A stretch of 64,000 bases of DNA from Enterocytospora artemiae (taxonomy: Eukaryota; Microsporidia). Below the pieces are notes generated by a model that saw only the letters and a list, made by a program, of their open reading frames with translations, did not search any database and was not told the DNA's origin. A program made the position numbers and the translations under genes. Below are positions 34,327 to 64,000 of the stretch, one piece after another (the first letter of the stretch is position 1; each line of letters starts with the position of its first letter). The DNA is taken from contig JASNGC010000005.1 in NCBI GenBank assembly GCA_038659295.1, positions 124,001 to 188,000 of the forward strand, written 5' to 3'.

Positions 34327-34474
34327 GAGGACTTGAAAATTTACAATCTTTTGATAAATTACTGGAGAACTATAGATTAGAAATTCAATTTGGTTTTAAG
34401 AATGGGAGACGATATGGAGGGGAAATCAGAAACACCAATATCTAAATTTTTTAAGGCTCCCTATTTCAAGCGAA

Positions 34475-34708: not shown

Positions 34709-35093
34709 TTTACATGGGGCCTGATGGTTGTTTCAACTAATATTTTGTGTTTGGAATGTTATAAGCTAGCTAAGATCATAATTTTTATCCATTATTAAAT
34801 ATTTGCCATATTAGAACCATTTAGACTAAGTAGGTTCAATGCTGTATTTTACATTCCTCAAACATTCTATTTGCACTAATTAATGTAAATTCTATCTCCC
34901 TCCATAATATAGGTCTGGCATGAAATATCTCGTAATGTTTGAAGCACATTTTTAAAACACCTAAGGTGCATCTTTCCTTGTGGTTAATATTTGCATTCAA
35001 ATGATAGCTTAATCCTACATGTGTGTACTGACCAAGATTTAATTTTCTTGCAGTTTCATAAACTTATTAAATTTGTTTTTATTTTTCAGCCCC
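34709..35093. other. Intergenic region
   Basis: About 385 nt, AT-rich, ending in TTTTTCAGCCCC before the next ATG. CCC tracts near 34900 are followed by an 11-codon frame only. Confidence 0.45.
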
Positions 35094-35324
35094 ATGGTAG
35101 AGATATCAAAAAAACTATCCAGTCCGAGTAAGAATATAAATGAAACACCTATAAAAAAGGCATTGAACAACTGTAACAGAAAGTTGTCTGTGTTTCTGTC
35201 AAAATTGAATGAATTAAATCGGCCCCAAACCCTAGTGGAAAAACAAAAATTAAACTCTGAAAGTATTAAGAAGACAGAATCTGAAAACATAATAGAAGGA
35301 ATAGAAAATATGAAAATCATCTAG
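35094..35324 (+). CDS. Small hypothetical protein (76 aa)
   Basis: The frame opens at a TTG at 35073, but the first ATG (35094) is directly preceded by CAGCCCC, which supports a real gene. The protein is hydrophilic, rich in Lys, Ser, Asn and Glu, with a central helix (NRKLSVFLSKLNELNR). No signal or membrane segment and no recognised family. Confidence 0.6.
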   Translation: MVEISKKLSSPSKNINETPIKKALNNCNRKLSVFLSKLNELNRPQTLVEKQKLNSESIKKTESENIIEGIENMKII

Positions 35325-35895
35325 AATGAATATTCATAAATAAATAGTATTGTTGAATTGTGGCATTCTTTCCTTCCAGAATTACTAGGATATTGTATCA
35401 AATTCTCATTTTATTAAAATTTCATAGCACAATATAGAAAATAAAATTGTTTTTAATCGAACAAAGACTAAGAATGTAAAGACCATATTCATTAGAATTT
35501 GGAATTGTAAGGTTCTAAATTATATATTCCAACTGCATAGAAGAAATTATTTTGATATAATGATGAATTCGAATACATTAAAAATATTACACTCATGTGA
35601 TATTTCCATAAAGTGTTAAACAGAAATTAATTGATGCCCATGCAACGAAAATCAGAAAATTTTAAAGAGTTATGTAAGACATATTGATATCATGCCACCT
35701 ACTTATAGTAAAAAACTCCCTTCCTCATGTATAAGGAAATAGTCTTTCAATTTTTTAATAGTTCATATGCCCAAAGTGGAATATCGAAAGTTCTTTTAAA
35801 AGATATGTGTTTTCTCTATTTCCAGCACACCATCATCAATTGAAAGTCTACTTGTGTTTGACTCTTATTAATTATAATTTTTGTTTTGCCCAAAA
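35325..35895. other. Intergenic region with a doubtful 38-codon frame
   Basis: About 570 nt, AT-rich. An ATG at 35727 preceded by CTCCCTTCCTC opens 38 codons to 35843; too short and featureless to call. CCC-ATG at about 35640 opens 15 codons. Confidence 0.4.
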
Positions 35896-37957: not shown

Positions 37958-38836
37958 ATGACTGAGTCCATCTATGACTCGGTGGTATCATCACTATACA
38001 TTCAGCTTACTACGAATTTTGATATTCCTTACTATATATTTATGTTTGGCCTTCTGTACTTTGTAGCTTGTCTCTTTGGTGTGCGCCATAAATATCAGTT
38101 TTGGATATTCCTTGATTTTATGATATTGTATACTATTCTAACAAATTTGATGGCTTGTGTTGTAGGCCATTTTGATGCTGATATAAAAATTTACCCATTT
38201 CTTTATATTTTGCATATATTTGTGGGAGGACTTAGCATATTCTTCCTGAGCCACATGAGTATTCATGATAACAAGAGGGACATTAATAAGGATGATGCGT
38301 TATTTCCCACGTTAAAAGCCTTCTGTACTGCGATTCCCAATACAATTTATTATGTGTTTACCTATGTGGATACATTAGTACGATCAGTAGTATTTTCAGT
38401 GTGGAGTGTTATAGAGGTGTATCTTATTAGGTTTCTCAGAATATATTTGATATCTAATTTAGTATATTATTTTAAGCGATACATATGGTGCTATATAGAT
38501 GCATATATATGGTGCTATATAGATGCATATATATGGTGCTATATAGATATGTACATATGGTATTATATCAAAGAGGGTTGCTTGTGGCTAATATATGGAG
38601 AGTTTTTAGTTGAATGGGAAATGATCAAGAATTTGCTCTATCCCGAAAGGCTTATAAGGATTTGCAGGTATATTTATACGGAATGTATTTATAACATGGT
38701 TATTAAAATATATAAATATATGAGTAGAAAAATAATCCCAATTTTTGAAAAGTATGTAAACATATATCTGGACTGGATAATGCTGGCGATATATCTTTAT
38801 ATTTGTGTGAAAATAATCTACACTAACACCATGTAG
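37958..38836 (+). CDS. Multi-pass membrane protein with octapeptide repeat, orphan (292 aa)
   Basis: The frame begins at a GTG at 37919, but the ATG at 37958 follows CACGCCCCAGA. The N-terminus (MTESIYDS) resembles that of the gene at 35896. Three spans follow (YIFMFGLLYFVACLFGV, WIFLDFMILYTILTNLMACVV, PFLYILHIFVGGLSIFFL), then a polar loop and further aromatic-rich amphipathic stretches. A tandem octapeptide YIWCYIDA occurs about four times (around residues 176-206). A final hydrophobic helix (WIMLAIYLYICVKIIY) lies close to the C-terminus. No known family recognised. Confidence 0.72.
   Translation: MTESIYDSVVSSLYIQLTTNFDIPYYIFMFGLLYFVACLFGVRHKYQFWIFLDFMILYTILTNLMACVVGHFDADIKIYPFLYILHIFVGGLSIFFLSHMSIHDNKRDINKDDALFPTLKAFCTAIPNTIYYVFTYVDTLVRSVVFSVWSVIEVYLIRFLRIYLISNLVYYFKRYIWCYIDAYIWCYIDAYIWCYIDMYIWYYIKEGCLWLIYGEFLVEWEMIKNLLYPERLIRICRYIYTECIYNMVIKIYKYMSRKIIPIFEKYVNIYLDWIMLAIYLYICVKIIYTNTM
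38481..38576 (+). repeat. 24-bp tandem repeat, about 4 units, in frame
   Basis: Units start near 38481, 38505, 38529 and 38553. The first two are nearly identical, the third differs at its end and the fourth has decayed further. Each encodes eight residues (YIWCYIDA, YIWCYIDM, YIWYYIKE). The gradient of divergence suggests recent in-frame expansion. Confidence 0.9.
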
Positions 38837-47850: not shown

Positions 47851-48365
47851 TTAAAAAATCTTAAAACATCTATTTACTTTCTTCATCAATGTGTTCAATA
47901 TTGTTTAAAGATATGTTTTCTGATTTTTACTGCCGTATTGAAATTTCCAATCATCATTAATCAAATATTAGGCAAAGATAGTTATCAAAACATTGTGAGA
48001 GTCATAACCCAGTCGGAATAAGAAAGAAAATAAATTGGCAATTGTCGTCGGCCTTATTAGCAAGTCATATCGAGGATAATAACCATATTACGAATTTTAT
48101 ACCATAAAAGCTCTAGATCCAAAAAATATTAATCAATACATTAAAATAAAATATAAAGGGGAATTGGCTAATGAAATAGATGAATGTATGGGCTATAATT
48201 ACAAAACTAACAAGTCTTATGAGAATGTTTAACGGGATTGTATCTATGAATATGGCATCTTAACCCTGCATATTGGAAGTTTAGAGTCTTGTACCACAGC
48301 CAAAATATACTTTTTCAATTTCCCATTTTGGATAGTCCAAAAAATCCAATTAAAACTTTTCACCC
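47851..48365. other. Intergenic region upstream of the secreted-protein cluster
   Basis: About 515 nt, AT-rich, no supported feature. It ends with AAAACTTTTCACCC before the first cluster ATG. Confidence 0.5.
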
Positions 48366-50567
48366 ATGAAAATATCTTTAATATTCTTTGGTATTGTGTT
48401 TTCACGAACAGTAACGGTGCCGATTAAAATGGCAGAGAGTCCATGTGCAGGAGATACATTTTGCGATTTTTTTAATAAAGAATCTGTAAAGATAAGGGGA
48501 GTAGTTATATATTGTGAGGAAGTACTTGATGCAGTAGAAAATACAGGCAGTTTTAAAATTTTCCAGGAGGATATATATTCTCATAGCATAGATAATGAGG
48601 AAGTACTGAAGAAAATTGAAAAGATTTATCAATCACAATTAAAAGATTTGGTAATCGGGAAATGTGTTTATGAAGTTGATGACACTAAATTCGATATAAC
48701 AGATCAGACAGTGGAGTTTATTGATTACCAGCTTCCAATAAAGCCCGTCACATTTAACTACGAGGAGAAACCCATCACAGATATATTGTCATATTTTCTA
48801 AAGATCTCGTGGTGGGACTACCCTTTTAGTAAAAAACTACCGTATAACGAATCTGATTTTGATTATTTATCTACAAACCAAGACAGCGTTGATCATAAGT
48901 CACGGAAGACTCGTAAAAAGAGTTCATCTATGTCTACGATGAAGAAATTTTTTCCTGATGTGGAGGCTATAAACCCTCTGAAAAGTGAGAAAATTCCTGA
49001 AGATGTGAACAGGGATAGTTTTGAGAGGGATATCACCAAAAATGGAATCTCTATATGCTTTAAGTGCTTAAGAATGCTTGACTTGTACAAGAACTTTATG
49101 AATCGTGTTGCAAGTACAGACAATCATCTTGAAAGTTATACGAATCTGCTGGAATTACCAAAATATCGGGGGAAATATACAATGCACGCGTTTTTTAACA
49201 AAAGGGGTGAGTCAATCCAAGCGATAAACACTAAAACCCAACAAGTAAGTTTTGGCCCAACTGCATCTCCTCCCTCTCCTAAGCGTTTCTTAGTCTTTAT
49301 AAATGGACAACTTCAAGCAATATCTATGGATCTTAAGGATGCTATTCCGTTTAGACACCTGGACACACAACAATATGAGTTGCATACTTTTGATTGTCTG
49401 AGTAGTGAGAATTCTCTTCTAAGTGCTAATAAAGAGTGGAAACCAGTTATAGAAAGTTTGAGGAATGACAAGCCAAAGGTTACAAAGGTTAAAGGTGTAC
49501 TGTATGTTAAGAACCTGGACCGCCACTCGTCTTTTGAAGATGTCAATCCCACAGAAAAATTGGAGAGTTCCAAGGTCAAATATCACTTGACATCGGAATC
49601 TTGTGATTTCAACAGACATTGCTGTCTTTACACGTGTGATCTGTTCCATTTGTCTGAATTTAAGCTCTATCAGGAAAATGTTAAGGATGTTTTAAGGTCG
49701 TTTGATGATAAATTCTACGAGATTACGGCAGAGGAAAGAGATAGGCTTTTTAACAAGTATACTGGGTTAGATCTTGGGGAAGGAAAGTATGATTTTGTTT
49801 GTGATGAAGATGCGAAAAAATTGAAAGATTCTTCAACATATGTTCCGGGAGAAAATGGACCATATGAAAAGAAGATTGATGAAATTAATCAGTTTGAGAA
49901 CTGTGAGAAGTTCAACAAAACCATCTGCTTGGACTGCGTTTTCTCTTTGAAATTGTTTGAGAAATTATTCAAACTATGTGCGAAGGAGAATGTAAAGGCC
50001 GTTGTTCAAATTGGAGTGTGTTTAGATCAAAAACCCATTTCAATAGTTTTGAGCCGGAGGGGAAATGCTGTCCATTTTAGATTAATGAAGGTGGATCCCT
50101 TAAGAATCATCTCCTTTATGGATTTTTTTTTCCCCAGAACATTTTCTTTCCTTGGTTTTGTTAAGGCGGAGTACTTTTTAGGAATGGTAGGAGATAGGCT
50201 TTGTGCTATCAACATAAACCTTCAAACATATATGCCCATTCATGATATTGCTAAGCTAAGATATGGGCTGGTTGCAAAGCCACCAAATTTGGAACATTTA
50301 CCTGAGAACTGTAAATCAACTGTGAACAATATCAAGGGACTATTTGATTGGTTGAAGAGATTTAAATTCAGTACCTTTACCAAGGTACCACAGCCAGAAG
50401 CGAATAAAGATCAGTTTACTGGTATCAAATCGAAAAAGCCACACTCACATCTGCCGAAAAGAGATTTTTCGGATATCTCCGAAGATTTATCAGAATTGAG
50501 CGAATATGAATCGTCCATTGGGGATGATATTTCTCTTCTGGAAGGTTCTGATAGCTCTGAATCTTGA
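48366..50567 (+). CDS. Two-module secreted protein A (733 aa), novel family
   Basis: A signal peptide (MKISLIFFGIVFSRTVTV) is followed by two copies of one module. Copy 1 (about 25-335): CAGDTFCDFFNK (C27, C33), IGKCVYEVDD, ICFKC (231-234), FNKRGESI, FINGQLQAISMDL. Copy 2 (about 410-635): CDFNRHCCLYTC, LGEGKYDFVCDED, ICLDC (521-524), SRRGNAVHF, YFLGMVGDRLCAININ. A Lys-rich disordered insert lies inside copy 1. Near the C-terminus is PHSH (692-695), then an acidic Ser-rich tail. No membrane anchor, so it is secreted or retained in a secretory compartment. ATG directly follows TTTCACCC. It aligns along its whole length with protein B. No known family recognised. Confidence 0.85.
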   Translation: MKISLIFFGIVFSRTVTVPIKMAESPCAGDTFCDFFNKESVKIRGVVIYCEEVLDAVENTGSFKIFQEDIYSHSIDNEEVLKKIEKIYQSQLKDLVIGKCVYEVDDTKFDITDQTVEFIDYQLPIKPVTFNYEEKPITDILSYFLKISWWDYPFSKKLPYNESDFDYLSTNQDSVDHKSRKTRKKSSSMSTMKKFFPDVEAINPLKSEKIPEDVNRDSFERDITKNGISICFKCLRMLDLYKNFMNRVASTDNHLESYTNLLELPKYRGKYTMHAFFNKRGESIQAINTKTQQVSFGPTASPPSPKRFLVFINGQLQAISMDLKDAIPFRHLDTQQYELHTFDCLSSENSLLSANKEWKPVIESLRNDKPKVTKVKGVLYVKNLDRHSSFEDVNPTEKLESSKVKYHLTSESCDFNRHCCLYTCDLFHLSEFKLYQENVKDVLRSFDDKFYEITAEERDRLFNKYTGLDLGEGKYDFVCDEDAKKLKDSSTYVPGENGPYEKKIDEINQFENCEKFNKTICLDCVFSLKLFEKLFKLCAKENVKAVVQIGVCLDQKPISIVLSRRGNAVHFRLMKVDPLRIISFMDFFFPRTFSFLGFVKAEYFLGMVGDRLCAININLQTYMPIHDIAKLRYGLVAKPPNLEHLPENCKSTVNNIKGLFDWLKRFKFSTFTKVPQPEANKDQFTGIKSKKPHSHLPKRDFSDISEDLSELSEYESSIGDDISLLEGSDSSES

Positions 50568-51047
50568 TAGTGTAATAAATTTTGAAATTAATGATATTTA
50601 TTTGTTATAGTGGTAATTCTGCTATCTGTATATATATCCACTTCTTTATAGCATAGTTTTTTTAAAATATGCTAGCTTGTAATTATTGGTGGGATATTTT
50701 GATTAATCAACTTGTGAAAAATAGTGATTGAACTTTTACTAAGGTTTATCTGAACCAACTCTATTTCACGTAATCTTGTCCTGATTCTTTATTGATTTAC
50801 TAGTCAGTTGGGCTTACGTCGGATTCTAATGAATTAATTTAGCATAATTTTAGTAACATCTTCCAACTTCAGAAAACTTTACGAATTTTGGGTAATGTTA
50901 TGAAGAATTATTTTGTTTCCATCATCATATGTATTGCGGCAGTTTTAAATTCAAAGCTCATTTCTTGATTGGAATGGTTTCAATTAATTAATAAAGTTTG
51001 CCAATATCTATTTTGGGAATTAAAAAAAAATTTATGAACTTGCCCCT
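50568..51047. other. Intergenic region between family members A and B
   Basis: About 480 nt, AT-rich. It carries an A-rich tract (nine A) about 25 nt before the next gene and TTGCCCCT at its ATG. No obvious similarity to the region upstream of A beyond base composition. Confidence 0.5.
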
Positions 51048-53207
51048 ATGAAAGTTTTCACTGTCTTATTTGCAACAATTCTTTCTAGAACAATTGTTGT
51101 CCCACTTAAGATGTCAGAATTGCCATGTGCTGGTAATAGAACATGTGACTTTTTTAATAAAGAGGCCATGAGAATCAGAGGAGCAGTTTTTTACGAAGAA
51201 GATATCGATAAAACTATTGAGGAAACAAAAGACGTATTGCTTCATGATGAAAGCATTTACGAGTATAGTGCCCACAAGGAGAATGTGGTGAATCAGATTA
51301 AAAAGATTTATAATGACAAACTAAAGAATTATCAAATAGGTAAAGTTGTTTATGAGGTGAACGATGCAGAAATTGAGTGTACTAGCAAAGAAGTATGCAA
51401 TTATGTGTTTGATATTAAACCAGTCACAGTTAGATATGAAGAGGAATCGCCTGTAAGTATTTTTTCATACTTCACAGAGATTGAATGGTGGAAAGCTCCA
51501 TTTAGTAAAAAGAAGTCAGACATCGACCTTAAAAAAATCACTAATAAGCCTTATAAGGATGAAGTGCCCTCCAAGAAACTATCCGACAAATCAACAAAAT
51601 TTAAACCAAAAGCCCCCAAGTTAACTGAGGAAGAGAAAAAAAAAGTGAAAAGCGATATGGAGTTTGAGAAGCATGTCAAAAAGTATGGTGTCACAATATG
51701 CTTTAAATGTGTTAGAATGCTTAAGTATTATGCAAACATTATGGATTTTGTTAAAAATGATGATTATCCGGAAAAAAGTTACAACATTTTGCAGGAGGTC
51801 GGTAAATACAAAGACAAGCATCCAATGTATGCTTATTTTAATTCCGAAAAGGAAACCATCCAGGTAGTTGTTTCAAAAGACGATGAGAAGTTTTTCGATA
51901 TTAAAAAAGATCCTATTCAGGTTGCTTTATCAAAGGATGGTAAGACCAGTAAAGACCAATCGTCTTCATTTTTCATAGGATATATAGATGGCAGTCTTCA
52001 GGCAATAAGTATGAATTTTGAAAAGACAATTGCATTTCGTTTTATTGACTCAAGGAGATTGCATTCACACCAAGTTGCTGTTTCTGATAAGAAAAAGCTC
52101 TACTTCGATCATGAGCTGCACTGGAAATATATTGCTGATGGGTTGAGTGACAGTAAGACGGGAAAAATAATAAAGGCAAAAAGTGTTAAATTTGTTAAAA
52201 ATCCCCAGGATTACGATTCAATAGAGGGGTTTAACCCCATTGAATCCAAAAAGGACTGCAGCATCAACTATTATCTGACATCTGAAGGATGTTCTAACAA
52301 TAGATACTGTTGTTTCTATAATTGTGACATTGCTAATCTTTCTAATTTAAAGATTTATAAGAATTACTTCCATGAAATCTTAAAGTGCTTTGAAGATGGA
52401 AAGTTTAACGAATCCTCAGAAAAAAGAAAGACTTTGTTTGAAAAGTTTGCGGTTATAGACGTTGGGGAGGGCACTTACACTTTTTTGGTCGACGATGATG
52501 CCAAGAAGCTAAGGGATTCTTTGGATTATTTTCCAGGGGAAAATCTAATTCTAGACGAAAAGATCGACGAAATCAAACGTTTTGAAAATTGTGAAAAATA
52601 TTCAAAACCCGTATGTTTGGAATGCTTAGATTCATGGGATTTGTTTGAGGAGATCATAAAAACTTGTTCTTTGGAGCAAATCCTAGCAATTGCAAATTTG
52701 GGAGTAGATTCTAACGGCTTGCCAGTTTCAGTGCTCTGTTCCAGAGGTGGAGATGTTGTCCACTTTAGGATATTTAGGGTTGGCGATTATGTTGATATAT
52801 CCTCTTTGGATTATTATATCCCCTATGCTTTTAAATACACAGGCATTCTTAGATCAGAATATATATTGGGAATGGTTGGAAATCGTTTGTGTGCCATAAA
52901 CTCCAATTTTAAAACATATCTTCCCATTCATGAACTGGCAAAACTATGGCCAGGATTAGGGTTAGCTGTGAAGAAGCCAAACTTGTCTACATTACCAAAG
53001 GCGGCTCATGCTATTATTAATAACATAACAGTACACTATGATAACCTGAAGAAGGTAAGGTTCGCTGAAGTTACAAGATGCCATAAGAAAACTGGAAGTG
53101 ATACATTTGCGGGTGTGAAAACAAAAAAGGCACATTCTCATTCAAAGGGTTCACCAAAGTCGGAACCTGAAAAAGCCGAAAAAGATGATTTTACATTAGT
53201 TGAATGA
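51048..53207 (+). CDS. Two-module secreted protein B (719 aa), novel family
   Basis: This is the closest paralogue of A and co-oriented with it, so probably a tandem duplicate. Signal peptide MKVFTVLFATILSRTIVV. Copy 1: CAGNRTCDFFNKEAMRIRG, IGKVVYEVND, ICFKC, FFIGYIDGSLQAISMNF. Copy 2: CSNNRYCCFYNC, VGEGTYTFLVDDD, VCLEC, YILGMVGNRLCAINSN followed by TYLPIHELAKL. The C-terminus has KKAHSHSKG and a short acidic tail. The Lys-rich insert in copy 1 differs in sequence from A, and a short local duplication (IQVVVSKDDEK, then IQVALSKDGK) lies around residue 290. ATG follows TTGCCCCT. Confidence 0.85.
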   Translation: MKVFTVLFATILSRTIVVPLKMSELPCAGNRTCDFFNKEAMRIRGAVFYEEDIDKTIEETKDVLLHDESIYEYSAHKENVVNQIKKIYNDKLKNYQIGKVVYEVNDAEIECTSKEVCNYVFDIKPVTVRYEEESPVSIFSYFTEIEWWKAPFSKKKSDIDLKKITNKPYKDEVPSKKLSDKSTKFKPKAPKLTEEEKKKVKSDMEFEKHVKKYGVTICFKCVRMLKYYANIMDFVKNDDYPEKSYNILQEVGKYKDKHPMYAYFNSEKETIQVVVSKDDEKFFDIKKDPIQVALSKDGKTSKDQSSSFFIGYIDGSLQAISMNFEKTIAFRFIDSRRLHSHQVAVSDKKKLYFDHELHWKYIADGLSDSKTGKIIKAKSVKFVKNPQDYDSIEGFNPIESKKDCSINYYLTSEGCSNNRYCCFYNCDIANLSNLKIYKNYFHEILKCFEDGKFNESSEKRKTLFEKFAVIDVGEGTYTFLVDDDAKKLRDSLDYFPGENLILDEKIDEIKRFENCEKYSKPVCLECLDSWDLFEEIIKTCSLEQILAIANLGVDSNGLPVSVLCSRGGDVVHFRIFRVGDYVDISSLDYYIPYAFKYTGILRSEYILGMVGNRLCAINSNFKTYLPIHELAKLWPGLGLAVKKPNLSTLPKAAHAIINNITVHYDNLKKVRFAEVTRCHKKTGSDTFAGVKTKKAHSHSKGSPKSEPEKAEKDDFTLVE

Positions 53208-53391
53208 ATCGATGGTTTTAAATTAAATAAATGGCATATATGTACGTGAAATATCTGTGCAGATTGTGGCGATAATCTCAGGATTGTCTCTAATTCATTC
53301 TATCAATATTTCTCCCTAAGACCTTAAAAGAGTTTAAAAAATTATCTTTTAGCATTAATAAAAAGATCAGTAAATGATATGTTTATTGGTT

Positions 53392-55467
53392 TCAATGAGG
53401 ATGTGGAGTCGGTGGTGTACTTGAGATACTGATGCTGTTAGAAGTTGTATCAGTGCTGGAGTGAGTAAATTTCAAACCCTTTGGTTTAAAATCTGGAAGC
53501 ACATCATATAATTTTGAAATTAAGATTGCGCAAAGAGATTTAAGTGGCTTTGTCTCCTTCTTTTGACAATCGTCTAAACAGATCGATATTTCTTGCTTTG
53601 TAATTATATCCAACCTATTGTTAAAGGAAAATTCTCTCGCGCTACAAATAAGTGAACTCAAATCTGTATCACTTATGTTTCTAATATCATAGAAATTCTC
53701 ACTGATTAAACACAGTTTATCCTTATGAAACCCTAAAAAGTATTCTGTATAGAAAATATGCTTCAAAAATGGCAGCCAACGAGTGAAATAAGCAAATAAT
53801 TTAAATGGACGTATGAAATACAATGGTACGAATTCACTCACCGATAAACATTGTCCATTTTTGTTAAACATCGCGGAAATATTCATCGGCCTGTTAATCT
53901 TCATAATTTTTCTTATGTTCAACATCTCTGAATACTCTAAAATATAATTCAGAGAACGAGTATTCTCCAAGCACTTAATACAGACACTTGTTGAGGCATC
54001 CACCATAGAATCAAAATTGGCTCTGTTTTTGGACAAATAAGGATCTGAAGAAGCGGATGTTGATGACTCCGCATCCATTTCAAATCTATACCTTATCAAT
54101 CCGAGTGTTAAATTAGCATGGTCTTCATAAAACTTTCTCAATAGTTCGGTGTCTCCTGCCAATTCGGCCTTCTGATACTTTAAAAGTGCAGAATTAGCTT
54201 TATTTTCATAAATCAGAATTTTGGTAGCATTCCGTAAGTTACAGCCATAGAAGCAACATCGATACTTATCCGAACAAATATTGTCAGATAGATAGAGTTT
54301 AGCGGCATATACTTTCTGAACAATGTTTTCATCCACGGCATTAAAGGAATATCGTCCCTGAGAGTCTGAAATAATTTTGGATTTTAGTATGTCGATTTTC
54401 TTAAACATCCTGGAAGGTCTACCAGGCAATAACATATCAGAACCGATGTTCCCTGACGTACTAACTAAACAGCCAGGTGCAACATTAACGCTACTCCACA
54501 TCTCCATGGCTTCTCTGTGTAATCTGGTGTTTGATGGTGAACCAAGTACACTTTCTAGATATATGATTTTGTGCTGTTCTGGAAACTCCACGGCAACCTG
54601 TTTGACAGAGTTATACTCCAAAATATATGCTTTTTCATCGAAGTGCTTGAACTCATAAATTGACTTTAGATCATTTTTAGCAACAAATAGTTTTCCATCC
54701 GCAAAAACTATGATATTTTTTTGAGAATAATTTTGATTACAATTGCCAGCTGCAGATCCGTGCCCATTTCTGGCCTCTAATGTCAATAATTTGCCATAAT
54801 TGTTACAAATTATTTGTATTCTATGGTTTTCAATATCACCAATGTAAACAAGCTTGTTAAAAAGTGAGTTATCCTCGCCACATGAGCCTTCTTCATAAGT
54901 ATCCTCGCCCTTCCCCATTAGTGATGTAATTTTGGAATAAAACTTTAGCTTTGGTAAACAGTTTATGCATATTTTGACCTCCGATGTTGCAAATAATCTC
55001 TTGTCAACATCATCAAGTAAACTTGAGGCAAATTTTGGCATGTCAAGCTGAGGCGATAATTCTGGAGTATTATGGTAAATAAGTTCATTACTAAGGAGTT
55101 TTGTTTTCTCTTCTGGTAAAGTATCTTCAATATCACCAAGTTTATAGAGTATTCGACCAATTGATGTATTTCCATGAATTTTATAAAAATCAGCCATTTT
55201 CTGTTCAAAGTTCCTGTGGGAATTATGGTGAATAAACTTCTTCCCATGAAGCTGATCATTAACAAAGCAGCATAGGTCATAGGAATCATTCATCATATCA
55301 CAAATTTCAGACTCATAAAACACAGATGCAACTATATTCTCACAGTCCTTGCCAAAAAAATTGCAAGAATTATTTTTTACATTGCAGCAAGTGTCTGAAA
55401 TCTTCAGATCACAATACAGCATTCGTGGTGTTGTCCATAATACAAAGAAGATGATTCTATAAAGCAT
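53392..55467 (-). CDS. Two-module secreted protein C (691 aa), novel family
   Basis: On the opposite strand to A and B. Signal peptide MLYRIIFFVLWTTPRMLYC. Copy 1: CNVKNNSCNFFGKDC, SIGRILYKLGD, ICINC, IIVFADGKLFVAKNDL. Copy 2: CSDKYRCCFYGCNLRN, LTLGLIRYRFEMD, VCIKC, FNKNGQCLS, YFLGFHKDKLCLISEN. The protein ends in TPPTPHPH, so the His element is at the very C-terminus. It is closest to D among its neighbours. ATG follows CTAGCCCCAA. Its 3' end is convergent with B. Confidence 0.85.
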   Translation of the reverse strand: MLYRIIFFVLWTTPRMLYCDLKISDTCCNVKNNSCNFFGKDCENIVASVFYESEICDMMNDSYDLCCFVNDQLHGKKFIHHNSHRNFEQKMADFYKIHGNTSIGRILYKLGDIEDTLPEEKTKLLSNELIYHNTPELSPQLDMPKFASSLLDDVDKRLFATSEVKICINCLPKLKFYSKITSLMGKGEDTYEEGSCGEDNSLFNKLVYIGDIENHRIQIICNNYGKLLTLEARNGHGSAAGNCNQNYSQKNIIVFADGKLFVAKNDLKSIYEFKHFDEKAYILEYNSVKQVAVEFPEQHKIIYLESVLGSPSNTRLHREAMEMWSSVNVAPGCLVSTSGNIGSDMLLPGRPSRMFKKIDILKSKIISDSQGRYSFNAVDENIVQKVYAAKLYLSDNICSDKYRCCFYGCNLRNATKILIYENKANSALLKYQKAELAGDTELLRKFYEDHANLTLGLIRYRFEMDAESSTSASSDPYLSKNRANFDSMVDASTSVCIKCLENTRSLNYILEYSEMLNIRKIMKINRPMNISAMFNKNGQCLSVSEFVPLYFIRPFKLFAYFTRWLPFLKHIFYTEYFLGFHKDKLCLISENFYDIRNISDTDLSSLICSAREFSFNNRLDIITKQEISICLDDCQKKETKPLKSLCAILISKLYDVLPDFKPKGLKFTHSSTDTTSNSISISSTPPTPHPH

Positions 55468-55781
55468 TTGGGGCTAGAAAAATAAAAAAATCAAAATATA
55501 CCTAATCAGGAAATTGGGGAAAATTGTCAATCCAAATCAAGAATATTTTGATGAAATGAATATTTGAAGTTCATATAATGTAGGTTCATCAATCTTATAT
55601 TCTTGATATTAAGAATTCTCATGTTGAGTGAAGCCAATTTATTTAATATAATTATTAAAAACTTTACTCCATTTAGTATCCGGTAATGAAATTTAATTAT
55701 AACAGAAACTTATCCATAGAGCGATATTAAACGATTGATTATAAGTTTTATCAAATATTATTAGTAAACCAACACATACGG
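55468..55781. other. Intergenic region between family members C and D
   Basis: About 315 nt, AT-rich, contains the promoter of C (minus strand) and the 3' end of D. Nothing else supported. Confidence 0.5.
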
Positions 55782-57851
55782 TTAGTCACTATTCATGGCA
55801 GGTATAATATGAGGATGGAATTCTTTCCCAACAATAGTTCTATGTTCTGATACAACCTTAGCTGGTGTAACAACGAAACTAATTTTCTTTGGTTTAAAAT
55901 TTGGTAGATTATGGTAACACTCAGTTGCAAAATGGCTTATCAAATTTAAATCTGCAGAAATAAACTTACCGTCTTCGGCAAATCTGGCTCTTTCATACTC
56001 CAACATTTTATGACCATTGAATGAAACCACCTCGGCACCATAACGAAATTCATTGTCGATCAACTGATATATTGGAATATAGTCCCTTAAATCAAAATTA
56101 ATAAGGGCTAATCTGCTTCCATGGAAGCCTAAAAAATACCTTTCCTTTACAAACACATTAGAAACAAGTCCCAACAGGTCAATATATTCTAAATAGTTGA
56201 TGAATTTGAATAATCCCGTAAAACGATACTTCATCGCAACCAAGCACTTTCCCTTATTATTGAAAACAGCAGAAATAATAGTTGTTTGTGCAAAGTCAAG
56301 ATTCTCTTGGCCAGAATCAAGCTCATCTCCACTTGATGCATCACACTGAGGATTTATGTCCATATTCTTGATATCTACTGCATCGATAGATGGCCCTTTA
56401 TCAATAGTCAAAATTTTTTGAATTTTATTTTCCTCAGCCTTTCTGAGCAACTTATCAAGTGTTTCTATGCTTAAAAAACACTTGGTACATATGGTTCTAT
56501 CAAAGCCCTCCGAGGACTCAAAACTATTTTTTACTTTGGAAAAGTAGGAGTTTCTGCAGATATCTTTTGGACTTGAAGCTGAGGTCTCAAGTTCTAGGGT
56601 GTTTCTAACATCGAATACCAGAGTAACATTACCAATTGGCACCAACTTAAAAGAATCTGGAATACTACTGTTAACATCCTCCGACTTTTGTAATTTCTTA
56701 ATTTTTTCTGAAATCTTACCATAAATGTCTTTATATATTTGGATGTCAACAATGTTTTCAAAATTACAGTTGTAAAAACAACAGTGATTCATCTTATCAC
56801 AACTTTGATCTATCAAATAGATATTTGAAACTACTTTTTTTGGAGAAGTATCTATTTGTGCGTCATCAAATTCCCACAAATCATCTTCGTTTTCCAATAC
56901 AGAGCCACTCCTGTATTCAGGGTATATCACATTGCACTGTTCTACTGAACGGTTAGATATCAGATTTTTCTTTTTTGGAATGGATACTCTGAAGTATTTT
57001 GGATCAAACTCACCAAATCTGTACATTCTCTGTATCTCATAATTACAGCAATACAATTCCCCATCTACGAATATTAGGTAATATACGTCCTCAGCCAACT
57101 TTTCACCAGGCATATTTGGATTACTTCTATCCGGTATTCGTTCCAATTGCAAGACGTAATTATCTTTGTTGCATATTGCTTGAATTTTACCAGGTTTTCC
57201 ATTAGAGCGTATCTTACTGAATTTTTCTAATTTAGACACATCAATCAACTTGTTGAACCTGTTTGTTACATCACTCATACACTCTCGAATGTCAAAATAC
57301 AACTGTATATTTCTTAAGCATCTTACACATATCTTGATTGTATTGTTCTTAATAACCTTTCCATTTTCATCGACATGTAGCTTGAGAAAATTTAAGCGGA
57401 TTATCTCCAACCCAAAATTTCTGGGAATGTCCGATTTTGAGGTGATGGACATTCCATCTTCGGAAACCTTTTTATCGTCTTCGCCATGGGTTGCATATAT
57501 TTCATTATCATCTGACCCGTCTATCTCTATACGACTTCTACCTAGAGAAATCCCTTCAAACTGTTTTGACATTTTAATTACCTTGTCAAGTGGATTCGTA
57601 AATCTGAAAAAGGTGGTTTCTTCATACTGCTCATACAGTCGATCGGTGATCTTTGCAATAAAATCCTCAGAACATTTTTTTAAATTATCACAAGAAGACT
57701 TGTAGAGTGACAGATCTAACATTCTGCTGCTTTTGGCTCCATAAAATTCGCATGAATAGTCATTGGAACAGATTTTATCAGAGTTGTACAAATGAAACAA
57801 TTCACTAATTACAAAAACTGAATGAAAAAAGCCAATGATTTTGATGAGCAT
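55782..57851 (-). CDS. Two-module secreted protein D (689 aa), novel family
   Basis: The open frame starts ten codons upstream with another ATG (57881), but the ATG at 57851 follows CGAACCCTTCTCTA and begins a clean signal peptide (MLIKIIGFFHSVFVISEL), so I choose it. Copy 1: CSNDYSCEFYGA, ISLGRSRIEIDG, ICVRC, LIFVDGELYCCNYEI. Copy 2: CDKMNHCCFYNCNFEN, IGNVTLVFDV, ICTKC, FNNKGKCLVA, YFLGFHGSRLALINFD then DYIPIYQL. The C-terminal element is EFHPHIIP. Same strand as C and E. Confidence 0.85.
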   Translation of the reverse strand: MLIKIIGFFHSVFVISELFHLYNSDKICSNDYSCEFYGAKSSRMLDLSLYKSSCDNLKKCSEDFIAKITDRLYEQYEETTFFRFTNPLDKVIKMSKQFEGISLGRSRIEIDGSDDNEIYATHGEDDKKVSEDGMSITSKSDIPRNFGLEIIRLNFLKLHVDENGKVIKNNTIKICVRCLRNIQLYFDIRECMSDVTNRFNKLIDVSKLEKFSKIRSNGKPGKIQAICNKDNYVLQLERIPDRSNPNMPGEKLAEDVYYLIFVDGELYCCNYEIQRMYRFGEFDPKYFRVSIPKKKNLISNRSVEQCNVIYPEYRSGSVLENEDDLWEFDDAQIDTSPKKVVSNIYLIDQSCDKMNHCCFYNCNFENIVDIQIYKDIYGKISEKIKKLQKSEDVNSSIPDSFKLVPIGNVTLVFDVRNTLELETSASSPKDICRNSYFSKVKNSFESSEGFDRTICTKCFLSIETLDKLLRKAEENKIQKILTIDKGPSIDAVDIKNMDINPQCDASSGDELDSGQENLDFAQTTIISAVFNNKGKCLVAMKYRFTGLFKFINYLEYIDLLGLVSNVFVKERYFLGFHGSRLALINFDLRDYIPIYQLIDNEFRYGAEVVSFNGHKMLEYERARFAEDGKFISADLNLISHFATECYHNLPNFKPKKISFVVTPAKVVSEHRTIVGKEFHPHIIPAMNSD

Positions 57852-58481
57852 TAGAGAAGGGTTCGAAAAAGTTTTTGGCATTTTTCATTTCTATTTTTAG
57901 AATATTGATTTTTAGTAAATGTAGAAATAATTGTATCAAATGTTTCTGAGTGATTAACTATTGAGACTTTCATGATTTAGAATAAACTATTTCTTCATAC
58001 AATTTACCGCTAGCCATCAGCAAAATTATACCATCACATAGCAATACATAATATATTGTTCTGACAATGTGATTGTTTTTCATATTAGCGAAATGAATCG
58101 ATGACTTTACAGTGTGTGAAGTATTAAATGTCTAATATGTTTTTAAGTCTCTTGATAAATTTTAAAAGTTACCTGTGCTTTACACAATACTAAACCGTTT
58201 CAGCAAGGCTTCTTGTCATATATATTGATTATACAATAAAAGCTCACATTATTAACGTATGGAATTTCTTGTCCTATAGAAATCAGATACCAGATTATTA
58301 AAAAGAAAATTATCTTCTAAGGTCATTGTAATCACAATATAATTATATTGAAACTGAATTTTACTCAACATCCCAGAAGATTTTGGCACAAGCCCGAAAT
58401 ATACAGGATTTAATTTTTCATATAAGTTTTTAATCGACAATAAAATTTATTCTACATATAGCATTTTATTGGATATACAAT
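57852..58481. other. Intergenic region between family members D and E
   Basis: About 630 nt, AT-rich. A minus-strand frame (58252-58440) opens with TTG and has no start signal; not called. The region should carry the promoter of D. Confidence 0.5.
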
Positions 58482-60659
58482 TTATAATTGTCGATAATTG
58501 AAGGGATGTGAATGTGGAAGTGTGCTAACATTGTTAAACACAATGGCCGTAGGGTTAGGGGCATTGGTTACATCATTCAAAATAAATTTTGGTAACGAAA
58601 AATACTTTCCCCCAACACTTGACATTGCCTTCTGAGCTTTGGATTTATCCTTTTCAAAGACGAGCTGTTCAACCACCAACTTTACATAGTCTAAATCAAA
58701 CAAATAAAGGGGCACTGTTGTTTTAAAGTCCTTCGAAATAGCACAAAATTCATCTCCATAGAATCCAACAAAAAAATAATCAAACTGCCTGTCCACAAAA
58801 GATGAAGGTATTATTTTCTTGATTAGATTTCCTGCAGACTGGATTATTGTTGCCGCAGGCCTTGTAATCAACAACTTTTGAAAGATAAAGTTACTAAACC
58901 CAGGAACACCCCAAGACAATATCTTTTCCCAATTTTCAATCTTAAAACGCCTTATAACTATGGCATTTCCATTTCTTGAAACGATTGCTTTTACTGGGAT
59001 CTTATTATCCCCATAGGTATCTAGTTTCAGTATCGCTTTAATATTAAACATATTCCTCAGCTGTACTATCTCTTCCAGCATTGCATTCACCTTCAGGCAT
59101 TTAATACAGATACTTTTACAGGAAAACCCAGATGCCTCATAGTTGGCATAATTCAATATTTTAAAGTCAAGGGTAGGATCTTTTCCATATACATAGTTGT
59201 CTTTTTTAACTGTATGTATGAGTTTTTTATCAACAATATATTGGTTTACAACATCTCCAAAGAACTTTCCCTTATATCTACTGTAGTCAATAGTCTTTCC
59301 TTGTGCCAGAAGCGACTCATATTCTCTAAGAACATTTCCGACCTCCCTAGTATAAAATACGATGTTTCTTACTCTATCAAAATTACAATTGTAAAGGCAA
59401 CAATACTTGATTCCATCACATTCCTCGGGTGTAAGAACCAGTCTAATTCTCTTTTCAACTTTTTCTATTCCAGGTTCTATATCCTCACATTCATCAGAAT
59501 CATCCAATCTTTGTACAAGTTTAAGTTGTTTTACTTCCATGAATTCTGGAGAATCCTCATTCATGTTTTTATCCTTCTTCATGTCTTTAAGCTTTGCCAA
59601 GGCCTTTCTAAATTCTTCTTTAAAAGACCCATCCGGTATGGAGGTGAGAGGTACCTCTTCACTAGTGATTACAAATCTCATAGGAGGTGTAGGAGGACCA
59701 CCAGCAGGTGGCCCTACAAATAGTCTTAGGTTTATAGGAGTACCCGGAATAAAAAAAGGTAAAAATTCAAAATTATATGTTCTAAGTGGCAAAAACCTGT
59801 CCCCAGATGGATGAAATAATACGAGTCTTCCACCATAATATCCCACAAAATAAAAATTTGGTTGATTCACAAAAGCTGCAACATTGGCAGGTAAAAATGG
59901 ATGCAGCTGAAGCGGTATAGCGATCGGTAAGCGAACTCGGCGTACAATCAGGCTACTATTAGTGTTTTTGTCGAAAATATACAATGCTTCTGACAACCCT
60001 GCACCCCCACAATTCAAGTAGATATTCGTTCGTGGTTTTAAGCGAGTTCCACTTAAAAAATGAGTGATTTTTTCATATCTATGGAGCGCAAGAACACACT
60101 TTACACATATTTTGACTCTTCGATTGCTAACTTGTGAATGATTGTCTCGAATCAGTAGGTCACTGAAATTATTCATTTGCTCTTGGTTAACCTCATTAAT
60201 AAGCAGCTGTCTTTTTAGTTTTTTATCCGTAAAATCTTTTAAAAAAAGTAACTTCAAGCTGTCTTCTGCCTTGCTGTAAATACTACTCTTGCCCCCAAAT
60301 ACCTTTATGTTTGTAAATTGGTTATGCGCCCCTTTTGATATTTCGTAGTAAGCGTGTCCAAGCACAAAGTTTGTATAACGTGACAAAAATCCATCTATTC
60401 TTCTTTTGGCAGCTCTGTCAGGGGGAGTATTATCATAGATGGTTTCTGATAGGAAGTCAGGATAGTAGCCTCCATTAATAACCCTATTTATAAGATCTAT
60501 CCGAGGATTATTATATATCGTAGTCTGAAGTATTCTTTTGGTATCCTTATTAAAAAACTCACAATGTCTGTTGTTTCCAGCACATGTAATATCTGACAAG
60601 ATAATAGGAATTCTTACTACTTCCACAAGTATCGCTTGTAGAAATAAGATGATTTGCAT
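58482..60659 (-). CDS. Two-module secreted protein E (725 aa), novel family
   Basis: Signal peptide MQIILFLQAILVEVVRIPI. Copy 1: CAGNNRHCEFFNKD, LGHAYYEISK, ICVKC, YFVGYYGGRLVLFHPSGDRF. Copy 2: CDGIKYCCLYNCNFDR, ICIKC, VSRNGNAIVIRRF, YFFVGFYGDEFCAISKDF. This member shows the internal duplication best, because both closing segments keep YFVG-x-YG and a following LPL/VPLY element. A Pro-rich loop (VGPPAGGPPTPPM) lies between copies. C-terminal element LPHSHPF. The N-terminal Cys motif resembles A and B. The ATG directly follows TTGGTCCC. Confidence 0.85.
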   Translation of the reverse strand: MQIILFLQAILVEVVRIPIILSDITCAGNNRHCEFFNKDTKRILQTTIYNNPRIDLINRVINGGYYPDFLSETIYDNTPPDRAAKRRIDGFLSRYTNFVLGHAYYEISKGAHNQFTNIKVFGGKSSIYSKAEDSLKLLFLKDFTDKKLKRQLLINEVNQEQMNNFSDLLIRDNHSQVSNRRVKICVKCVLALHRYEKITHFLSGTRLKPRTNIYLNCGGAGLSEALYIFDKNTNSSLIVRRVRLPIAIPLQLHPFLPANVAAFVNQPNFYFVGYYGGRLVLFHPSGDRFLPLRTYNFEFLPFFIPGTPINLRLFVGPPAGGPPTPPMRFVITSEEVPLTSIPDGSFKEEFRKALAKLKDMKKDKNMNEDSPEFMEVKQLKLVQRLDDSDECEDIEPGIEKVEKRIRLVLTPEECDGIKYCCLYNCNFDRVRNIVFYTREVGNVLREYESLLAQGKTIDYSRYKGKFFGDVVNQYIVDKKLIHTVKKDNYVYGKDPTLDFKILNYANYEASGFSCKSICIKCLKVNAMLEEIVQLRNMFNIKAILKLDTYGDNKIPVKAIVSRNGNAIVIRRFKIENWEKILSWGVPGFSNFIFQKLLITRPAATIIQSAGNLIKKIIPSSFVDRQFDYFFVGFYGDEFCAISKDFKTTVPLYLFDLDYVKLVVEQLVFEKDKSKAQKAMSSVGGKYFSLPKFILNDVTNAPNPTAIVFNNVSTLPHSHPFNYRQL

Positions 60660-61572
60660 GGGACCAAGATTTTAAATTTTCAAATCATTGACTTCCCAAT
60701 ATGGAAATTGAAAAAATTTAGTATCACTAAAGGAGAATTTCAATAGATTAATCAAGAGTATTTATTTACCAAGCGTAAGCATACTTTCAATGAATTGGTA
60801 TGGAATACACATGGGCTTTTCTAACTAACTATACACCACCTGAGAAAAAACATCACCAACCCATCAACCATCAAACTTCTACAGTAGTTATTATGGACAG
60901 ATATTAGTTGCATTTAAACAGTCATTCATAGACCACGTTCGTTGAATGTTATATGATTTCGGTGTAGGCTATTGACAATTATATTCAGATGCAGAACTTT
61001 TACTTTAACCATTAACACAAAAATTCACCCGAGGAAATGATAATAGACTCAATATAAAGATGGCTACTAGGATGATATTGTCAAAACCATCATCTCTTCC
61101 ATTTATATCCATCAAAATATAGTTTTCTTCTGATAAAATATTGAATATTTCGACGAATTAAATTATTTCCCTTAAGCTAACTATGGTGTAAACAAAATCG
61201 TTGAATTTAACCTAACTATCGTGCTTTACATTCTTATTATAAAATGTATTCATTTGAAGATATTGATTAATCAAACTCCACTTGTTCTACTACCTACTCC
61301 TATTAATAATCTCATCTAATTTAATTTATAGGAGAAGTATGATTTGATCACTAACTGTTTTCAATACCGTGATCTTAATTTCCTCTAAAAAACCGGGCTA
61401 TAAGGCATAAAAGTATACAATAAAATTTTTATCTTACAACTATTATATCTACAAATAATATTACTATTCTACATACAAAACTTTCATTTTCGCAACACTA
61501 ATTCAGCACTCCTTAATAAGGCAAAAGGAGGGAATTTTACATATAAAATTGTTTTTTTACCGACACCCCAAA
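60660..61572. other. Long divergent intergenic region between family members E and F
   Basis: About 910 nt, the longest spacer in the window and strongly AT-rich. No coding frame with a start signal and no tRNA-like fold. It contains the promoters of both E and F, ending with CGACACCCCAAA before the F start. Confidence 0.5.
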
Positions 61573-63684
61573 ATGAGAATGTATTTCGACAGCTTAGGAT
61601 CATCTCACGTCTCTTCTCTGCTACATATATTGTGGCTCACCATGATATTTTCTACAGAAACAACAGATGTTCGAGGTTCTCCAAATATTGTTAATCCTCA
61701 AGATGCTGACAATAGAGAATTTATAGTCTTAGATGCTATAATGGATGAGTTTTCAAAAGCAAGTGATGTTATTAACGACTGGGACTGCAGTCGATCTAGT
61801 AATAGTAATGAGCATTGTAACACCATGGAAAACTCAGCTCGGATTAATTTCATAGACTACAGAGATTCAGCATTAATTTTATACCACTCGACTGGAGAAT
61901 TTTCTAAAGGTAAAAGTGTCGTAAATGCCATCAAAGAAGCAAGTCCTTATGCAGTTCATGCGATTTTGTATTTTCCAAAAGAATTAATATCAGTCCCCAA
62001 TACAACAGCTCTGAGCGGATGTAGAAACTGTGTCACACACATTCCGCTTCTTGGGAAGATTAAAAATAAGATGTTTTATGACGATGTAAATATGGAGGTA
62101 GAATACAAAGTAACAGCAGATGCAGACAAAGCTCTTCGTTTGTTCCAAAATAAAGATGGTAAATTTATTGTTCTAAAGGTTAAAGAAGGTATTCTTACAC
62201 TTTCAAGAATAGCACATTATCAAGGAGTGTACATTGTAGGAAGAAATATGTCAGATGAAATAGTGGCTGTTAATCCTCAAACCAATGATGTTAGCTATTG
62301 GTCTTCATTTGATAATGACACAGAAGTATTACTGATGAATGCTGGTGAAATCAGTAAGCGAGGTTTCTTTCAGACAGCACTTCCCAAGGAAAATCTTGAT
62401 CAATTGTCCGGAGTAAGTGCCCCACAAACTATACCACTCGCAACTGCAAAGACTTATAACGGTGACTGTGTTCTTGAGCCCTGCATGGTATCGATAAATG
62501 ATAATGGAAATTTACAAACTAAGTTTAAAGGTACTAGTGGTACACCAAGTGATAATCCCATTAGTAGTTCGAAGGAAGTGATGTATTTCCCAATAAAGAA
62601 TTACAGGCTTGATGTATTTAACCTGGTCAAAGTCACCACTGGTGATAATACAGAGTCTTGCTGCAAATTTAAGAGTTTGCAGAAAAAATTTGACTACATC
62701 AACGTTATTCCTTCTCAAAATGCAAAAGATTCTTTATTAGGAAACTGTTTTATTAATGGACTAGAACTAAAGGACAGTAAGCGCGAAATTACGGGACGTG
62801 AAATCCCAATCTGTGACAATTGCATTAAAAAAACATGTCCTGCTCTTAAATCTGTATTGGATTCAATCTACCAATATAATACTAATGTGAGGATTCCAAT
62901 TGATGAATCTGGCCGATATCTACTAACAAATTGGTTCAGGGAATATTTGGTACTCCAAAATTGTACTGCTAAAGGAACCAAGGGATTGAATCTTTGTTTA
63001 GGAGAGAATGACAAGGGATATGTTCTCTATGATATTAACAATTTAGATAGTTCATACTATCTAGATGATCTGGAAATTTCTTGGGAAAGTGATACTAATA
63101 AGAAAGGAGGATGTTCCTTCAAACACATGGATATCAAGGAGTTACAGTCTGAGAAAATCCAGTGTTCTTCCCAATTGACAAGCATTACCTCTGAGTGGAA
63201 AGAGTATGAGATCATACCATTACCTACCAAACATGGATTTAAGTGTCAAAATATTGCACCACAAATTGTAGATGGTAGCTTTGCATTATTTGGTTTGGAT
63301 GTTATTAACAACAAGGACGCAAATCCAAAGCAGGTAGAACTTAGAGAAAATGGTTTTGATGCATCCAAACTACCATTACCACCGATTGTAAATGGACCAC
63401 CAGTAAATCCAAGTCTTGGTCAAGCAGGTATTTCTTCCTCCTCACCTCTTGTTACAGATGTTTCTACTACTCCTGTCGTCCCAGAAGTTGTAGATACTAC
63501 TCTTGTTGTTACAAAGGACGAAAATACTGATTCTGCCCCAAAAGTCGATGCTAACTCACCTCAGTCTACAACAAATAGTGAGTCAAAGGGCAACTGGCCT
63601 ATTTCGGGAGTAATGCTACTCATTATTGCAATATTGGTGGTGGTAATAGGATTCTTTGGAATGAAGCATTTCAATATTCTCTAA
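61573..63684 (+). CDS. Membrane-anchored divergent member F of the two-module family (703 aa)
   Basis: A TTG at 61549 opens the frame, but the ATG at 61573 follows CGACACCCCAAA. A signal-like segment (SSLLHILWLTMIFST) is followed by module-like landmarks. Copy 1: CRNC, then GVYIVGRNMSDEIVAVNPQ. Copy 2: a CC-containing segment (ESCCKFKSL), ICDNC, then YVLYDINNLDSSYYLDD. The CxxC and closing Y-[VI]-[VL] ... NP/IN segments align with A-E, though identity is low. A Pro/Thr/Ser stalk and a C-terminal transmembrane helix (VMLLIIAILVVVIGFFGM) replace the His-rich tail. Likely a type I surface or vesicle membrane protein. AATAAA follows the stop. Confidence 0.8.
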   Translation: MRMYFDSLGSSHVSSLLHILWLTMIFSTETTDVRGSPNIVNPQDADNREFIVLDAIMDEFSKASDVINDWDCSRSSNSNEHCNTMENSARINFIDYRDSALILYHSTGEFSKGKSVVNAIKEASPYAVHAILYFPKELISVPNTTALSGCRNCVTHIPLLGKIKNKMFYDDVNMEVEYKVTADADKALRLFQNKDGKFIVLKVKEGILTLSRIAHYQGVYIVGRNMSDEIVAVNPQTNDVSYWSSFDNDTEVLLMNAGEISKRGFFQTALPKENLDQLSGVSAPQTIPLATAKTYNGDCVLEPCMVSINDNGNLQTKFKGTSGTPSDNPISSSKEVMYFPIKNYRLDVFNLVKVTTGDNTESCCKFKSLQKKFDYINVIPSQNAKDSLLGNCFINGLELKDSKREITGREIPICDNCIKKTCPALKSVLDSIYQYNTNVRIPIDESGRYLLTNWFREYLVLQNCTAKGTKGLNLCLGENDKGYVLYDINNLDSSYYLDDLEISWESDTNKKGGCSFKHMDIKELQSEKIQCSSQLTSITSEWKEYEIIPLPTKHGFKCQNIAPQIVDGSFALFGLDVINNKDANPKQVELRENGFDASKLPLPPIVNGPPVNPSLGQAGISSSSPLVTDVSTTPVVPEVVDTTLVVTKDENTDSAPKVDANSPQSTTNSESKGNWPISGVMLLIIAILVVVIGFFGMKHFNIL

Positions 63685-63865
63685 TAACCGAATAAATTTA
63701 GAGATTTATTTTCCATAGTATTGAGACCAAAGTTTTCTTAAAATAAAAAATTTTGTTGATTACATGTGCACGACCCTATAGATATGTGTTGCTTCCCATG
63801 CAGTATTATATCTTGTCTTGTCCTCCATACTTTGAATTTTTTGTAAAAATTTCCCCTAGTTTTTG

Positions 63866-64000
63866 ATGATTTCAAAGAAACACAAATTTAACTATAAAGC
63901 AGTTCCAATAAACCAACTACTTCCATTTAGGGAGGGTTGCCATACTGATAAAGTAAGTGGGCAAAACCTAACCGAAAAGTTGAATCTTGAACTGCTTGAG
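63866..64000 (+). CDS. 3'-truncated gene, unknown product
   Basis: An ATG preceded by TTCCCCTAGTTTTTG opens a frame that remains open for all 45 codons to the window end. It starts MISKKHKFNYKAVPINQLL. The CCCC start signal and uninterrupted frame support a real gene cut by the window edge. The visible part is soluble and basic and has no signal peptide; the family cannot be told. Confidence 0.55.
   Translation, partial: MISKKHKFNYKAVPINQLLPFREGCHTDKVSGQNLTEKLNLELLE

Follow-up and report, generated by a model that had tools for sequence, protein, structure and literature searches.

The question raised by positions 48366..63684 of this stretch is whether six adjacent genes without a recognised domain form one family, and of what kind. 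The window, by which we mean the whole 64,000-nucleotide stretch analysed (C5:124001-188000, from Enterocytospora artemiae), belongs to a genome of 3,015,070 bases in five contigs, with a guanine-cytosine content of ~34%. A sequence-only reading had placed six genes here, A to F, of about 690–730 amino acids (aa), and took them for a single family of secreted proteins. The placement and the sizes are borne out, with open reading frames (ORFs) of 691–733 aa, and no further ATG-started ORF of at least 50 aa interrupts the series: all 12 others of that kind in 47851-64000 fall inside A-F. The idea of a six-gene family holds in part. A-E are homologous and locally expanded, while the family extends to at least 14 loci genome-wide and F sits on a separate, membrane-anchored branch. 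The whole is most likely a lineage-specific surface or secreted gene family of the kind typical for microsporidia.

Genes A (48366..50567, + strand, 733 aa), B (51048..53207, +, 719 aa), C (53392..55467, −, 691 aa), D (55782..57881, −, 699 aa as read) and E (58482..60659, −, 725 aa) find one another in phmmer searches of the window ORFs at E-values (E) of 2.2e-9 to 2.3e-168, and nothing else is found at E <= 1. The nearest relative of B is A (42% identity), and that of C is D. By alignment these five are clear homologues, sharing 28 invariant columns, 10 of which are cysteines. The landmarks come in two sets, the first being C-x5/6-C-x-F, Y, G and IC-x2-C, and the second C-x5-CC-x-Y-x-C, Y, G, C-x2-C and a closing [YF]-[FI]-[LV]-G hairpin. 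The ordered landmarks that had been ascribed to all six genes are thus present in A-E, with the spacing of the start corrected from C-x4/6-C to C-x5/6-C, and absent as such from F; rather than a single series, they are better described as the set of one module occurring twice. When the N-terminal halves of A-E, cut before the second cysteine cluster, are compared with the C-terminal halves, hhalign reports a probability of 97.5% and E 7.3e-12 over 237 columns, and with the modules cut out the comparison gives E 2.2e-13. As judged from these profiles, each of the A-E proteins carries one module twice.

The N- and C-terminal modules lie at 48414..49400 (aa 17-345) and 49557..50360 (aa 398-665) in A, 51096..52097 and 52236..53057 in B, 54568..55419 and 53548..54315 in C, 56946..57800 and 55917..56834 in D, and 59730..60617 and 58560..59462 in E, each on the strand of its gene, with both modules of B, D and E and the C-terminal module of C placed by the module alignment. 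Across 22 modules from the family, a cysteine followed by x-[FYL] is found in nearly all rows and the C-x2-C helix in all rows; most rows also have a hairpin in which [YFIL]-x-[LVI]-G leads into a second strand. In the module tree, the N-modules and the C-modules of A-E, five of each, fall into two groups (supports 89/84 and 96/95) with identical subgroups, E,(A,B),(C,D), the C-D pair being supported at 93/87 and 85/82. Because the two subtrees share this grouping, the doubling of the module came before that of the gene, which was then copied on the spot; A and B, like C and D, are physical neighbours. The end branches of the tree are long (median 1.61), and firm support is seen on 4 of its 19 inner branches. 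The best tree separates the doubling in A-E from that in the related proteins F, I and J, but the approximately unbiased test does not reject trees in which either the N-modules or the C-modules are constrained to group (p 0.125 and 0.097), and we do not claim separate doublings for that reason. For A versus B, no usable synonymous rate was obtained with which to assess selection.

The family extends well beyond the window. In searches of the genome with single proteins, with new matches reused as queries, 11 of the 14 loci appear as query or match; because counts obtained in this way are lower bounds, 14 loci is a minimum. They lie on four of the five contigs, and 13 have an uninterrupted ORF. 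Outside the window, genome search found G (C1:691053, 387 aa), H (C3:286839, 563 aa), I (C2:100325, 719 aa), J (C1:448658, 911 aa), K (C1:469794-470978, 394 aa) and the neighbours L and M (C3:707022-709411, 321 and 394 aa). The interrupted locus, N (C3:578281-579608; L039:2282-3609), consists of abutting ORFs of 207 and 234 aa that together give a module followed by a stalk and a membrane helix. One module is present in G, H, K, L, M and N, and two in F, I and J, as in A-E; J carries an additional coiled-coil-like stretch. The copies diverge to ~20% identity. An all-against-all phmmer comparison of 94 ORFs gave no match at E <= 1 to any of the 78 that lie outside the family. When the modules are gathered into six groups and compared profile to profile, all 15 pairs score at least 29.5 (E 1.6e-3 or better), against a top score of 26.0 and a best E of 3.3e-3 in 288 control comparisons. 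The controls were single sequences, not profiles, chosen from these 78 ORFs by length (48 ORFs, 180-800 aa).

The start sites of these loci suggest that they are real genes. A CCC signal within 15 nt before the ATG is found at 12 of 14 family loci, compared with 183 of 2499 window ATGs; this count uses an inner Met as the start for D and M, and leaving both out gives 10 of 12. The signal is missing at I and K. In A it precedes the annotated start, and in D it stands ahead of Met11 (57851), which is probably the true start of that gene. A CCC-like motif just upstream of the start codon is described for most Encephalitozoon cuniculi genes, and for ribosomal-protein genes of other microsporidia, in the portion of PMC2803860 drawn on here.

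Gene F (61573..63684, +, 703 aa) is the distant member of the cluster. It has a signal-like segment, two divergent modules (61768..62337 and 62626..63087, both placed by alignment and profile comparison, the second short and the most divergent), a Ser/Thr/Pro-rich stretch and a C-terminal transmembrane-like helix with its core at 63601..63657 (aa 677-695, mean hydropathy 3.07). F retains two C-x2-C helices and one hairpin; neither the opening C-x5/6-C-x-F nor the YFLG segment at the close is present. Among the window ORFs, phmmer finds only F itself and no match to A-E at E <= 1; the best pairwise BLASTP value is E 0.67, with C, and even a profile of F and I reaches A-E at no better than E 1.4e-3. 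These values would suit an unrelated anchored protein that happens to adjoin the cluster, which we nevertheless consider improbable. The N-modules of F, I and J match those of A-E at E 1.4e-5, with a score of 43.3 where none of 48 controls exceeds 21.6, and the two-module plan of F is the same as that of A-E. A chain of paralogues also connects them, F-I-J-K-H-G-E, beginning with F-I (25% identity, E 3.4e-17) and I-J (E 3.5e-7). Its last step joins the A-E group, through E, to G, an anchored protein with one module encoded on contig C1. On these comparisons F joins A-E solely through profiles and chained paralogues, as part of a separate, membrane-anchored branch.

Hydropathy points to the secretory pathway for the family as a whole. 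A hydrophobic N-terminus (nine-residue mean of at least 2.1) is present at 14 of 14 loci, as opposed to 6 of 27 other window ORFs. The N-terminal signal that had been proposed for all six window genes finds support in best nine-residue Kyte-Doolittle means of 2.10-2.89 within residues 1-35, but is less clear in D and E, where the longest N-terminal run without charged, N, Q, H or P residues is only 6 and 5 residues, respectively. Outside A-E, 8 of 9 loci have a C-terminal helix (19-residue mean of at least 1.75), as do 5 of 27 other ORFs; none of A-E has one, their C-terminal means being at most 1.09. In N the helix is located in the second ORF. Read in this way, the family has two architectures, one with a membrane-helix-like C-terminus (outside A-E) and one without (A-E). 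The tails differ as well: the last 45 residues include a His-x-His in all five of A-E, but not in any of the eight anchored members whose ORF is uninterrupted. This element may be a metal site, a sorting signal or shared inheritance. At the 75% level, conserved cysteine columns number 4 in the A-E N-modules, 7 in the A-E C-modules, 5 in G/H, 4 in K-N, and 5 and 6 in the N- and C-modules of F/I/J.

We compared the family with known domains at several levels, and the sequence-only reading, which recognised none, is upheld. The strong profile or structure matches that would have spoken against it were not obtained in Pfam, NCBIfam, PDB or fold searches, and no match of the family to Pfam, NCBIfam or PDB profiles is convincing above cut-off. 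In NCBIfam, 15 families match at E <= 1, each in one of the 14 members; the best of them are SMC/Rad50-like coiled-coil models (E 1.7e-7), which as far as the table tells are not module matches, and we take the member concerned to be J. A search of 5.8 billion proteins with the A-E profile scored 7991 candidates, none at E <= 1, and residues 35-185 of K drew 26 candidates from the same database, none at E <= 10. Both negatives are weak because the method requires shared five-residue words, and true relatives such as A and C share one such word and A and E none. Scans of viral and prokaryote contigs with the A-E alignment gave 95 and 76 pattern matches, respectively, and no confirmed relatives.

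One candidate from the PDB did not convince. The module profile matches the ‘Scone/Cake’ proteins at E 1.9e-5, yet no single stretch passes, and the whole A-E profile matches them at E 0.028 or worse; we read the lower value as a repeat effect. The repeat of ‘Cake’ and ‘Scone’ (6tji and relatives), which we take to be designed beta-propellers, resembles the closing hairpin of the module in sequence (profile positions 209-233). The match there is a repeated short one, whereas the module appears to show the hairpin once and not as a ring of blades. The PDB profile match spans one 25-position hairpin, and the two predicted models of the module put helices before and within the strand order.

Those models give a first view of the module. 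The model of the A C-terminal module (m904c1e380d40), made with the 12 window modules as alignment, has a mean predicted local distance difference test score (pLDDT) of 79.1 and a predicted template modelling score (pTM) of 0.69. The model of the C N-terminal module (m01d18d4b0132), made with the same rows reordered, is weaker (65.0 and 0.64), with long stretches below 50. The predicted order is strand-strand-helices-strand, then the C-x2-C helix, then seven consecutive strands. Secondary structures of the two models agree in 69% of 239 columns, compared with at most 43.5% in 264 slides; since both were built from the same 12 sequences, this agreement is support and not independent proof. Searches of the PDB with both models, and of a viral model library with the first, gave no convincing match (best viral E 0.44). 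Because none of the PDB matches listed convinced, we claim no fold relation, and novelty of the fold is not thereby shown, though the fold may be new.

Taken together, the signal-like N-termini, the want of a recognised domain and the local expansion, all noted in the sequence-only reading, are supported here, for a microsporidian genome, and on balance we favour, with modest confidence, a lineage-specific large gene family of secretory-pathway proteins with a role at the host interface. Each protein would enter the endoplasmic reticulum (ER) by way of its N-terminal signal, seen here as hydropathy, and the module would fold as a cysteine-containing alpha/beta unit in which the conserved cysteines may form disulfides. 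F and the eight loci G-N would be held on the parasite membrane by the C-terminal helix, presumably with the module outward. The A-E branch, on the evidence of sequence and tree, has a doubled module and no anchor, and local copying of the gene produced its five two-module proteins, all lacking a membrane helix; the anchor was presumably lost in this line, rather than never present. The most likely job of A-E would then be to act after release towards the host cell or its vacuole, with the anchored forms on the parasite surface. If each copy binds a different host or parasite partner, the copies could diverge to the extent seen with the cysteine frame kept.

Ranked second is a role in spore structure, in which the modules would be disulfide cross-linked into the spore wall or a polar-tube coat, with A-E as a soluble matrix and F-N as membrane tethers. 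The signal-like N-termini, the forms with and without a membrane helix and the conserved cysteines in every module group would all suit such a role. We nonetheless think it unlikely: the copies here are highly diverged and locally duplicated, whereas a spore coat protein is typically conserved in a small number of orthologues, and Pfam gave no match to spore-wall or polar-tube families. Less probable again is that these are residents of the secretory pathway, retained in the parasite ER or inner membranes as folding or transport factors. The anchored forms extend only a little way beyond their C-terminal helix, as is possible for ER membrane proteins, and the long coiled-coil-like stretch of J, with its coiled-coil model matches, could be read likewise, but no Pfam match was obtained, and divergence to ~20% identity with local expansion is atypical of housekeeping factors.

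The C-x2-C helix also recalls zf-AD (PF07776), whose weak matches in A (21.5 bits) and D (20.2 bits) surround one such helix; they fall below the curated cut-off of 28 bits, involve 2 of the 14 members at E <= 10, and cover the later part of the profile only (positions 27-70 of 75 in A and 36-68 in D), without its first cysteine pair, which differs from that of the family. An intracellular zinc-binding module related to zf-AD, with C-x5/6-C and C-x2-C as metal ligands, would fit the exactly four invariant cysteines of the A-E N-module and the K-N module, but those scores, the C-x5/6-C spacing and signal-like N-termini that point to an oxidising compartment make it highly improbable.

Several observations weigh against a host-interface family. 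The signal and transmembrane (TM) calls are crude hydropathy and not the output of SignalP or TMHMM. A stricter N-terminal test (mean of at least 2.0 plus nine successive uncharged residues) is passed by 11 of 14 loci, all but D, E and K, and by 5 of 27 controls; the C-terminal helix of H is weak (1.35). Cysteine parity is mixed, in that the even numbers expected of disulfides are not found in all groups. At the scale of the genome, pairwise links between branches are weak (G-E 1.7e-4, K-H 3.4e-3, K-J 3.7e-3), and the connections between branches depend on profiles and layout. Finally, the Nematocida signal-peptide families NemLGF1 and NemLGF5 are placed near contig ends in the part of PMC5423893 drawn on here, and the loci of the present family are not; every one is at least ~100 kb away from the ends of its contig, although the contigs are perhaps not whole chromosomes.

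Microsporidia infect most animals. The family is of interest for its readable build, in which one module, single or repeated, makes up proteins that either carry a membrane helix or lack it. We put forward more tentatively, as somewhat doubtful, that the fold of the module is new, originated in this microsporidian lineage and provides an all-purpose ectodomain used as one anchored, two anchored or two free copies. If so, A-E would be former surface proteins without their anchor, and a genome-reduced parasite would have turned a surface family into a secreted one. The one-module proteins outside the window (387 and 321 aa) are smaller structure targets than the ~700-aa window genes. The case also illustrates that such a family can exceed what pairwise search suggests: F seemed unrelated until intermediate copies turned up elsewhere in the genome.

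The surroundings of the cluster show the pattern of a compact eukaryote, with CCT, MCM, septin, MOZ/SAS and ER retention receptor genes among the window neighbours. In a protein-database search, the window CCT-zeta has a top match of 66% identity, and its best named matches are Enteropsectra breve (64%), Pancytospora philotis (63%) and Vittaforma corneae (61%); judged by its genes, the genome is that of a microsporidian from the Enterocytozoonida side. Elsewhere in the window, a 439-aa ORF (13698-15017, +) has hydrophobic segments at both ends (2.79 and 2.78), no Pfam match and no phmmer match from the present family, and is possibly another surface protein. A 643-aa protein (20914-22845, +) combines a class I chitinase (GH19) domain with a signal-like N-terminus. 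About 2.4 kb at 33529-35895, long for a compact genome, holds no ORF of 100 aa (the longest are 93 and 77 aa) and no Rfam match, and a 24-bp tandem repeat of 3.8 copies (38479-38568) lies within the ORF 37958-38836. Near the loci on other contigs, a 188-aa ORF close to K (L027:84-650, −, on C1) contains repeats of a Ser/Thr-rich peptide in the first half, with hydrophobic segments beyond. Adjoining I on C2, an ORF cut by the locus end (L017:3731-4366) has a hydrophobic N-terminus and a sub-threshold Pfam match to Cytolethal distending toxin A/C (E 0.07, 13.2 bits against 22), a domain that presumably has a ricin-B-like fold. Ricin-B families are given as common in microsporidia in the relevant passage of PMC5423893.

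How, then, does the family compare with those already described in microsporidia? In the passages of PMC5423893 and PMC10393165 drawn on here, a large gene family is defined by at least 10 paralogues per genome and enrichment in signal peptides or TM helices, the latter paper, from 2023, using an iterated hidden Markov model search of proteomes at 1e-5. Reinke and colleagues list 68 such families in 23 genomes, 59 of them without members beyond the genus or species; host-exposed Nematocida proteins are enriched for signal or TM segments, large families and clade specificity, and the function of most large secreted families is given as not known (PMC5423893, same passages). The present family has 14 homologous loci, with the weakest links (E 3.4e-3 and 3.7e-3) backed by profiles, and more than half of its members have signal- or TM-like segments by hydropathy, the N-terminal one in 14 of 14 (11 of 14 by the stricter test) and the C-terminal helix in 8 of 14. 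Since it agrees with the definition as far as hydropathy tells, we regard it as one more microsporidian large gene family. No description of it was found in the literature searched, which is not proof that it is unpublished. PanLGF1 and EbrLGF1 come from Pancytospora and Enteropsectra, the nearest named relatives by CCT-zeta, and, compared by description only, resemble it as large families without similarity to solved structures; of four further largest families modelled in that work, three are likewise reported without apparent similarity to solved proteins (PMC10393165, in the part cited). With NemLGF1 and other large gene families it shares at least 10 paralogues, signal- or TM-like segments in most members, the general want of a known domain, strong divergence and adjacent copies. 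Again compared by description only, it differs from them in being built of a single cysteine module that occurs once or twice, in branches with and without a membrane helix.

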